From: Haloarcula halobia
GTDB lineage: Archaea > Halobacteriota > Halobacteria > Halobacteriales > Haloarculaceae
NCBI RefSeq assembly: GCF_029338255.1
Contig: NZ_CP119787.1
Location: 2,170,001 to 2,234,000, forward strand
Length of the DNA: 64,000 bases
Reading direction: 5' to 3'
Below the pieces are notes generated by a model. That model saw nothing but the letters and a program-made list of their open reading frames with translations. It was not told the origin of the DNA and ran no database searches. Shown here piece after piece: positions 10,957 to 14,106 of the stretch (the stretch's first letter is position 1; the number at the start of each line of letters is the position of its first letter). Both the position numbers and the translations under genes were made by a program.

Positions 10957-11251
10957 GTGCCTCCGGCCGCCGACCCCCCGCAAGCGGTAGCACAGTTGCT
11001 GGAGACCCTCCGCGCGGACTTCGGCGACGGGTTGCGCAGCTGCGTCGAGTACGCCCCGACGAAAAACGAGGTCTACTATCAGGGAAGACATCGACGACAC
11101 CGTCGCCCAGGGCCGCCTCGTCCGCGTCGAGGAGCTCTACGAGTTCGAGCGCGTCGTCGGTTTCTCCGTCGACGCGTCCGCGACCCCGGACCTGAGCGGG
11201 ATGCTCTCGTCGTATCTCGAGACGGTGTTCGACCCGGGCGACTCGGCCTGA
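10957..11251 (+). pseudogene. Frameshifted small haloarchaeal hypothetical gene
   Basis: From a GTG at 10957 the frame codes about 41 residues (PPAADPPQAVAQLLETL ... NEVYY). At about 11080 it must shift one base forward to continue sensibly as REDIDDTVAQGRLVRVEEL ... ETVFDPGDSA, ending at the TGA at 11249-11251. Both halves have haloarchaeal composition. Together they look like one protein of about 100 residues of the kind with a central 'YxREDI' strand. The unshifted frame turns arginine-rich. A real frameshift or a sequencing error are both possible. Confidence 0.6.
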
Positions 11252-11280
11252 GACGGGCGGGCGTCGAGGGGTCGCGCGCC

Positions 11281-11847
11281 TCAGATCGACTGGAGTATCT
11301 CCCGCTGCATCTCCATCTTGCGCGTCTTGTAGTTGATCTCGACCGGGTCGACGTCGTCGACGTCCTCCGGCCGGAAGATAAAGGAGAGGGCGTCGAAGTC
11401 GAGGTGGGCCTCGATGCCGTCGGGGACGCTGACGAGGTACTCCTCCAGCGTGTCGGCCGAGACGAGCGCCAGCGCGTCCTGCTGGCCCAGCAGGTAGAAC
11501 TCGGCCATGTCCGGAATGTCCGTCCCCTTGTTCTGCCCGAGGCTGTTCTTTATCTTGGGCTTGATGCTGCTCGAGGGGTTCTTTCGCGCCGCGGTGAACA
11601 TCAGGTCCGTCTCGTACTTGAACTCGATGTCGAAGCCGTACTCGGCGTCCCGGAAGTCACGGCCCTGTTCGTCGACCCACCGGAGACGGCCACTGGAGAA
11701 CTCGGCGACCCCCTGTTCGATGAAGTCGGACTTGTCGAAGCGGTCCTGGGCGCGGTTGAGCTGTGACCCGAGCGAGACGATGAGGCGGGCGTACCGTTCT
11801 GCGTCGATGACGTTCTGGAGTTCTCTTGCGTACGAACTCGCTTCCAT
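11281..11847 (-). CDS. Putative type II restriction endonuclease of the methyltransferase block
   Basis: A 188-residue protein with no clear family assignment by eye. Residues 68-77 contain D-I-E75-F-K77 on a predicted strand after RDFRDAEYGF, consistent with the ExK half of a PD-(D/E)xK nuclease core. A basic stretch follows (RKNPSSSIKPKIKNSLGQNKG), suitable for DNA contact. It lies 120 bp downstream of two DNA methyltransferase genes on the same strand and has its own strong TATA element (TTTATAT). I infer the nuclease of a restriction-modification system from context plus motif. An MjaI-like family link is possible but untested. Confidence 0.5.
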   Translation of the reverse strand: MEASSYARELQNVIDAERYARLIVSLGSQLNRAQDRFDKSDFIEQGVAEFSSGRLRWVDEQGRDFRDAEYGFDIEFKYETDLMFTAARKNPSSSIKPKIKNSLGQNKGTDIPDMAEFYLLGQQDALALVSADTLEEYLVSVPDGIEAHLDFDALSFIFRPEDVDDVDPVEINYKTRKMEMQREILQSI

Positions 11848-11967
11848 ACTATGTCCACATTCGGGTAGATGGATATAAATCCTCGAGTGTGACTCTCAAT
11901 CTTGATCACCGGGTCGCCTCGAGCACCGACACAGTCAGAGAGACCACGTCGCGTCGCCGCGGCGCGC

Positions 11968-13218
11968 TCAGTCGAACGAGCTCAACGTCTGCTGGCGCCC
12001 CGGGAGTACCTTCGTCTTCAGGCCGTCCGGGTCGTCCTCGACGTGGACGTCGCCGCGGTGGGCGATGAGGATGCGGTCTATCTCGGTGGCCTCGCCCTTC
12101 GTCTCGCCCCAGATGCGCGAGACCTTCTCGTTGTCCGGCACCCTGTCCTCGACGATGCGGCCGACCTCGAACCCGTCCATCGGGGCGACGACTTCCTCCG
12201 CGACCTCCCTGGCGAGGTTGATGGTCTCGTCGCCCTGGTCGACGTCGCCGATGACGAACGCGGCGACGCCGCTGTCGCTGTCGAGTACCTCGTCGGCGAC
12301 GGCGAACGTCTCGGTCATGAACTCGAGATACGCCTCGAGGTCGAGCTCGTCGTCGAGTCGCTCGTCGACCACGTCGGGTTCCTCGTCTAAGAACCACAGC
12401 CGAATCCAGTTGTAGAGGCCGTACTTGAGGACCTTCAGATAGGGCGGCGACGTGAAGATGAGGTCCACGTCGTCGACGTCCTCAAGATCCGGGAGCGTCT
12501 CGGGCAGGTCCCGCGCGTCCCCGAATATCGCGTGACCGCTCCTGGCCGGGGCGCCGTCGCTGTAAATCGTGCGGAGGCGTTGCTGGAGTTTGTCGAAGAC
12601 GTCCCGCCGGGGCGGCTCGAGGCCCTCCTCCTCGATGTAGTCGCTGACGTAGCCCTCAGACATAGAGAAGGTGTTGGGCATCGAGACCGAGAGGTACTGT
12701 CCGCTCTGGCCGTGCATGATGCCCAGCAGGAGCGCCGTGACGAACGTATCGACCTGCGAGAGCGAGCGCAGGTCCTCGGGGATGCCATCGGTCCCGAGGC
12801 CGAACTCCTCTTTGAGGTAGACGAGCTGGCCCAGCGTGTGGTCGTGATAGAGCATCCGGACCTTCTCGGGGACGTGGTCGGTGGCCGGCGCCTCGTAGGC
12901 AAGGCGCAGCTCCTTGAGGCGGTCGTGTACCGCTGCGGCTGTGGGCGGGTCGACCTTCGCCCGCGTCAGCACGTACGCCATCGGGTTGAGATCGTTCCCG
13001 ACGCCGACCCGGTCGTCGACGCAGGCCTGGAGTGCCGTCGTGCCACGACCCGAGAACGGGTCCAGCACGACGTCGCCCTCGTCGGTCAGCTTCTGGATGA
13101 AGTAGTGGGGGAGCGACGCGGGGAACATCCCCATGTACGAGCACATCGGGTGGAAGCTGTGCTCCCACTTGCGCTTGAGCGTCCGCCACTCGGGACGGAT
13201 GTCGTCGAGGCTTCCCAT
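11968..13218 (-). CDS. DNA methyltransferase with TSPPY motif
   Basis: A 416-residue SAM-dependent amino-methyltransferase. Motif I (DPFSGRGTT, residues 53-61) precedes motif IV (TSPPY, 256-260), so the order is SAM-binding first and catalytic second, with a long insert between them that may include target recognition. SPPY-type motifs are found in N4-cytosine and some N6-adenine enzymes, so the base modified is uncertain. It is preceded by an SD-like CAGGAG and lies 87 bp after the second methyltransferase. It probably protects the host site of the linked nuclease. Confidence 0.85.
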   Translation of the reverse strand: MGSLDDIRPEWRTLKRKWEHSFHPMCSYMGMFPASLPHYFIQKLTDEGDVVLDPFSGRGTTALQACVDDRVGVGNDLNPMAYVLTRAKVDPPTAAAVHDRLKELRLAYEAPATDHVPEKVRMLYHDHTLGQLVYLKEEFGLGTDGIPEDLRSLSQVDTFVTALLLGIMHGQSGQYLSVSMPNTFSMSEGYVSDYIEEEGLEPPRRDVFDKLQQRLRTIYSDGAPARSGHAIFGDARDLPETLPDLEDVDDVDLIFTSPPYLKVLKYGLYNWIRLWFLDEEPDVVDERLDDELDLEAYLEFMTETFAVADEVLDSDSGVAAFVIGDVDQGDETINLAREVAEEVVAPMDGFEVGRIVEDRVPDNEKVSRIWGETKGEATEIDRILIAHRGDVHVEDDPDGLKTKVLPGRQQTLSSFD

Positions 13219-13305
13219 TGGACACTCCTGGGATCGTTCGGCTATTGAACCCGGCGATACGTAACTCGTCGGTCCGGCGGTGGCTGCCAGTCCGTCGTCG
13301 TTCGC

Positions 13306-14037
13306 CTAGTCGGTGAGCGCTGTCATCGTCTCGGCGAAGACGTCCTTCGCGTTCTCGTTCAGGTCGCCCAGCACCGCCTCGCGGTCCTGCTGGGCGGCCG
13401 CGATGCCGACGACGCCGGCCCCGGCCAGCGGGTCGAACACCGTATCGCCAGGCTGTGAGAAGTGGTCGAGGAGGATATCGACCACCTTCGGCGGCAGGCG
13501 CGTCGGATACTTGGGCATCTCGCGGAGGTAGTTGCGCTTGACGTCGAGCACCGAGAGGTTGGCCTCGCCCTCCTGGCAGTGGTCGTAGGAACACTCGTTC
13601 GAGTAGTACCAGTCGTCGCCCTTGACCATCCAGAACAGCTCGTAGACGTTGTGCGCCGGCCGGAGCTTGCAGTAGGGCGCGAAGTTGTACGCCCAGTACA
13701 GCTTCCCCTCCAGCGTCCACTCGTCGTGGCCGAGGACGGCCTGGTGGACGACGTGGCTGTTGTCCTTCCCGGAGAAGACGATGGCTTGGCCCGCTTCGTG
13801 GGTGTTGCGTGCGAGGACGTCCAGCAAGGTGTCGATTTTCTCGCCGTACTCCTCGGTCTCCCACTCCACGTACCCGTCGACGACGCGCGACGTGTCGCGG
13901 TTGTAGTTGCTCGCCTTCCCGTCGAACTGCAGGCCGAAGGGCGGGTCGGTTATCGCGAGGTCCGCGTCGACGCCATCCCACTCGGTCATATCGGTGAGCG
14001 AATACTCGACACGGTCGGCGACGGAAGACTCGGTCAT
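13306..14037 (-). CDS. DNA methyltransferase with DPPF motif
   Basis: A 243-residue enzyme with the catalytic motif DPPF at residues 31-34 and the SAM-binding motif DPLAGAGVVGIAA at 202-214. This is the catalytic-first order of beta-class N6-adenine or N4-cytosine methyltransferases and opposite to its neighbour. It is the first gene of the block and has a TATA box (TTCATTTATA) 24-33 nt ahead of the ATG. Having two methyltransferases of different architecture suggests an asymmetric recognition sequence with one enzyme per strand, or two independent specificities. Confidence 0.85.
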   Translation of the reverse strand: MTESSVADRVEYSLTDMTEWDGVDADLAITDPPFGLQFDGKASNYNRDTSRVVDGYVEWETEEYGEKIDTLLDVLARNTHEAGQAIVFSGKDNSHVVHQAVLGHDEWTLEGKLYWAYNFAPYCKLRPAHNVYELFWMVKGDDWYYSNECSYDHCQEGEANLSVLDVKRNYLREMPKYPTRLPPKVVDILLDHFSQPGDTVFDPLAGAGVVGIAAAQQDREAVLGDLNENAKDVFAETMTALTD

Positions 14038-14106
14038 TGGCGGGACTCACACTATCGCCGTATAAATGAATTCTGAAGGTCCGGCCGACTGCCGGACCGC
14101 GCCCGC

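Follow-up and report, generated by a model that had tools for sequence, protein, structure and literature searches.

Do two dissimilar amino-methyltransferases (MTases) and the small protein encoded beside them in Haloarcula halobia form a restriction-modification system, and is the small protein its nuclease? The genes lie in a 64,000-nucleotide stretch of contig NZ_CP119787.1 (here, the window), in which M1, M2, and R were all confirmed as head-to-tail minus-strand open reading frames (ORFs). The features are as follows, with the basis of each in parentheses.

11281–11847, minus strand: R, a 188-aa PD-(D/E)xK restriction endonuclease candidate (AlphaFold2 model, structural matches, conservation of D64, E75, and K77)
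11617–11658, minus strand: predicted active-site codons of R, namely D64 (11656–11658), E75 (11623–11625), and K77 (11617–11619) (alignments, predicted strands)
11874–11879, minus strand: TTTATA, the TATA box of R, 32 nt before its ATG (sequence)
11968–13218, minus strand: M2, a 416-aa amino-MTase (PF01555, 2.7e-16; PADLOC MTase_II, 1e-42)
13224–13229, minus strand: AGGAGT, resembling a ribosome-binding site, upstream of M2 (sequence)
13306–14037, minus strand: M1, a 243-aa beta-order amino-MTase (PF01555, 2.7e-17)
14061–14066, minus strand: TTTATA, the TATA box of M1, 29 nt before its ATG (sequence)

The original prediction, made from the DNA letters, was that these genes make up a restriction-modification system, and our analysis indicates that it is very probably right. 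The locus is most likely a Type II system, as supported by the predicted fold of R, its conserved catalytic triad, gene linkage, co-occurrence across genomes, and purifying selection. R would be a small endonuclease of the PD-(D/E)xK type, probably acting as a homodimer and cleaving a particular short sequence in DNA when it is unmodified. By methylating this sequence, probably on adenine, M1 would protect the host genome, and M2 would be a further amino-MTase of the locus that can be dispensed with.

The two MTases do have the opposite motif orders ascribed to them. M1 carries motif IV (TDPPF, residues 30 to 34) ahead of motif I (FDPLAGAG, 201 to 208), whereas M2 carries motif I (LDPFSGRG, 52 to 59) ahead of motif IV (TSPPY, 256 to 260). 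Both match PF01555 (N6_N4_Mtase) with 63.9 and 60.6 bits, respectively (cut-off, 26.7), as well as many PADLOC Type II MTase models, and their motifs predict m6A as the product of M1 and m4C as that of M2. That M2 is the widespread CTAG orphan MTase was considered and ruled out, a close M2 being found in just 4 of 391 haloarchaeal genomes. More distant relatives of M2 (37 to 39% identity) adjoin genes for a HerA-type ATPase and NurA in other haloarchaea, and the M2 family thus serves another type of locus too. This MTase-HerA-NurA locus exists in several haloarchaeal families (L124–L129; e.g., L125:5964-10842 and L124:6066-8760), the HerA-type ATPase being PF01935 in L125 and the NurA-domain gene PF09376 in L124.

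TTTATA occurs six times in the window, counting both strands. The spacing of the boxes at R and M1 would yield almost leaderless messages, with little or no leader for R; such messages are common in haloarchaea. M2 is preceded by an AGGAG site instead of a TATA box. It had been proposed that R has a TATA box of its own, as when nuclease and MTase expression are timed separately. The box is there and R has its own predicted promoter, but so has M1, and a separate promoter is therefore not peculiar to R.

No family matched R in searches of Pfam, NCBIfam, PADLOC, PHROGs, and the PDB sequences. Pfam includes RE_MjaI, the MjaI-type family that had been named for checking, and no Pfam family matched R at an E value of ≤1. 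Members of the R family gave only scattered weak matches, with no two libraries agreeing. Set apart by these searches, R apparently represents an undescribed family of restriction endonucleases.

The D-I-E-F-K strand and the basic stretch that had drawn attention to the 188-residue protein were both recovered, since DIEFKY (residues 73 to 78) is a predicted strand and K/R-rich residues 88 to 107 come after it. From an alignment of 29 rows, with relatives from haloarchaea and viral contigs, AlphaFold2 produced a model with a pLDDT of 91 and a pTM of 0.86; the confident model was obtained only with the 29 rows, as a 5-sequence alignment gave a pLDDT of 34. PD-(D/E)xK similarity in a structure prediction had been named beforehand as a test, and the model displays it. 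Restriction endonucleases lead both structure searches. The top VIA-align matches are NaeI (1ev7/1iaw; Z 10.6, rmsd 6.3), ThaI (3ndh; Z 9.9, rmsd 3.8), and DpnI (4esj; Z 9.7, rmsd 3.5), followed by Eco15I, NhoI, and SwaI, with PvuII lower; the best Foldseek match is DpnI (E, 1.2e-4). Z scores of 10 to 11 are moderate, and the rmsd of the NaeI match is high. ThaI, NaeI, and DpnI are thus the closest solved folds to R, sharing its catalytic core, although they are only 10 to 12% identical to it, with no match at the sequence level, and NaeI and DpnI are longer than R, which aligns to only a portion of each.

Among 43 NR90 relatives of R (less than 90% identical to each other, reaching down to about 25% identity), D64 and E75 are conserved in 43/43 and K77 in 42/43, the single change being to arginine; E44 and N101 vary hardly or not at all. 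D64 (strand 63 to 67) and E75-x-K77 (strand 73 to 78) lie on adjacent predicted strands, which is the PD-(D/E)xK arrangement. Judging from the model and the conserved residues, R is a predicted PD-(D/E)xK nuclease with a restriction-endonuclease-like fold.

The same fold is found in nucleases with other tasks. That R is a homing endonuclease, a Holliday-junction resolvase, or a repair nuclease seems very unlikely: Hjc and I-Ssp6803I do match the model, but more weakly (Z 5 to 6.7) than the restriction enzymes that outrank them, the occurrence of R follows that of MTases in genomes and phages alike, and neither an intron nor a junction context was seen. Hardly more credible is the idea that R depends on methylation, as DpnI does (Type IIM/IV), and attacks modified foreign DNA, having come to lie near MTases by chance or in a defence island. 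DpnI is the best Foldseek match, but the alignment covers only its residues 1 to 163, and the remainder of DpnI has no counterpart in R. Moreover, R is repeatedly linked directly to MTases, of two classes, and an R that cut MTase-modified DNA would be suicidal in that setting.

If R is instead the nuclease partner of these MTases, as we favour, they should occur together. R was found in 7 of 391 haloarchaeal genomes, intact in five (G000, G246, G072, G013, and G069), frameshifted in G332, and as a C-terminal fragment in G287. M1 is present in seven genomes as well: these five, G332, and G235. Accordingly, all six genomes with a full-length R (including the frameshifted one) have M1; the naive hypergeometric P value, which ignores relatedness, is about 1e-12, and that by genus is about 5e-7. 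Close M2 genes (77% identity or more; search threshold, E ≤1e-40) exist in G000, G332, G013, and G072. Absence of the third gene beside homologous MTase pairs would have spoken against the original prediction; R accompanies all 4 close M1-M2 pairs, frameshifted in G332 and separated by a gene in G072. An alignment-based search across the phylum (393 genomes) returned only the haloarchaeal carriers already known, and a contig scan with just two short peptide patterns found two loci, so that rarity beyond haloarchaea and phages is only roughly gauged.

Gene order varies among the carriers. M1, M2, and R are co-directional in the window and in G332, whereas M1-M2 faces R (convergent) in G013 and also in G072, where one extra 337-aa gene lies between. 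In G246, M1 is divergent from R, and in G069 the two are 222 kb apart, with a transposase gene near M1; neither genome has a close M2. A functional unit would be expected to survive rearrangement in this way, with R and M1 kept together. In Halorubrum yunnanense, the 337-aa gene between R and M2 (L011:9794-10807) has no Pfam match and lies in a low-G+C stretch (0.51). The G+C content of R and M1 is 0.43 to 0.52 in G013, G069, and G072, below the sampled chromosomes of G013 (0.68) and G069 (0.64), and they therefore look acquired; the window copies (R, 0.62; M1, 0.65) are hardly distinct from the window (0.65).

Another reading, which we regard as improbable, is that the three genes are inherited remnants, with a nonworking R and with M1 and M2 persisting as orphan MTases. 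Most haloarchaeal MTases are orphans (PMC6471742), and in the sister genome of Halomicroarcula sp. SYNS111 (G332), R has a 1-bp deletion at codon 29 (L015:10001-10563), which may be a sequencing error, while M1 and M2 are intact. R in the window, by contrast, is intact, retains all conserved residues, and is under purifying selection, as are its relatives in archaea and phages. The dN/dS ratio is 0.20 between the window and SYNS111 (codons 30 to 188), 0.04 between G072 and G013, and 0.10 to 0.17 in phages. The SYNS111 module is 94% identical to the window at the DNA level, above its flank (89%). Within the same hosts, R is 42 to 52% identical and the MTases are 73 to 78% identical; a nuclease less conserved than its MTases is typical of restriction enzymes. 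Close copies of M1 and M2 are also few (7 and 4, respectively, among 391 genomes), unlike those of the conserved halobacterial orphans. These, namely the CTAG MTase cHG U (HVO_0794) and the GATC MTase cHG W, are likewise haloarchaeal amino-MTases, but cHG U occurs in about 80% of genomes and neither has an equally abundant partner nuclease (PMC6471742), whereas M1 (2% of genomes) and close M2 (1%) both travel with R.

R relatives with up to 57% identity are encoded in IMG/VR viral contigs; none was found in the cultured phages and plasmids searched. In several phage lineages R adjoins a beta-order MTase of PF01555, and in others one of the D12 class; each such locus has one MTase. For about ten of the phage R genes, no MTase lies within the stretch of contig seen. 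In a reverse search from the phage MTase, 54 of 75 contigs, which are not independent and include many near copies, had an R-profile match within about 3 kb, the end of which usually lay about 50 nt or less from the start of the MTase (gap, −16 to +51 nt); the profile had no match in haloarchaeal control DNA (2.4 Mb). Close relatives of M1 or M2 were not found in the viral contigs searched. M1 is homologous to the R-linked phage MTases (28% identity over 219 aa) and shares with them the pattern Y-x-R-D-x3-V-V-x-G-Y after DPP[YF] (motif IV), which is absent from the four other phage MTases examined. This pattern hints at a shared target without proving one. In a midpoint-rooted tree, haloarchaeal R forms one clade inside the viral sequences, which makes transfer from viruses to haloarchaea plausible, depending on the root. 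There is about an even chance that large uncultured aquatic phages are the main home of the R family, which would serve them as a restriction-modification weapon with exchangeable MTase classes, and that haloarchaea acquired it from this viral pool.

What site would R cut? The original prediction took the dual MTases to mean an asymmetric target, that is, a Type IIA/IIS-like variant of the Type II system in which each MTase modifies one strand. The tight clustering, in four genomes, of two unrelated MTases whose motif orders are opposite is in keeping with this idea, but the balance of evidence has weakened it, and we consider it doubtful. Intact R and M1 persist in G246 and G069 without a close M2, phage R loci have one MTase, and R is a single domain of 188 aa rather than the usual two-domain IIS layout. 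R in both G246 and G069 retains all conserved residues; because loss of one strand's MTase should kill a cell with active R, M2 appears dispensable. A more distant MTase could substitute for M2 in these genomes. Probably, M1 alone is enough for protection, which would fit a target that is palindromic or, since one MTase may also serve such a site, quasi-palindromic (PMC4081073).

A site-avoidance scan of palindromes (4-base, 6-base, and gapped) and of every 5- and 6-mer, covering 400 kb of each of four carrier genomes, revealed no depletion common to the carriers when they were set against three noncarriers. CTAG is low in all sampled genomes, carriers and noncarriers. Strong depletion unrelated to the R locus was seen for CCCGGG in G013 (6 versus 192 expected in 400 kb) and for GATC in the chromosomes of G246, G055, and G228 (sampled chromosomes of these four genomes, L151–L190 and L231–L250). 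The lack of a shared depleted site counts against the Type II reading, as do the 222-kb gap in G069, the SYNS111 deletion, and the phage R genes without an MTase.

The locus resembles orthodox PD-(D/E)xK Type II systems in having a separate small nuclease gene linked to amino-MTases, in its patchy distribution and gene-order shuffling, and in a nuclease that diverges faster than the MTases; it differs from them in that R lacks a sequence family in the five libraries named above and in that the haloarchaeal locus has two MTases. Type II nucleases are hard to recognise from sequence, and in 2023 a survey of archaea had profiles for only three homologous groups (PMC10609329). The R family profile ties a new candidate nuclease to archaeal MTases and to those of dozens of uncultured phages, and for that reason some MTases labelled orphan or solitary may have nuclease partners. 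It also offers a source of new cutting specificities to assay, one of them from a halophile.

Among 831 phage genomes, a 2014 survey counted nine restriction-modification systems (PMC4176335). Chloroviruses and marseilleviruses, too, are viruses with both a nuclease and an MTase (PMC7253447), but their hosts are eukaryotic, and they are likened to R here by gene content. In L296–L299 (e.g., L297:2367-3005), the R-linked phage MTase described above follows another protein, about 210 aa long and containing ...GRTGDD...HIEQKSG, which is possibly a second, unrelated ExK nuclease partner. In the window itself, a small ORF downstream of R (10957–11253) is apparently broken by a frame change near 11080.
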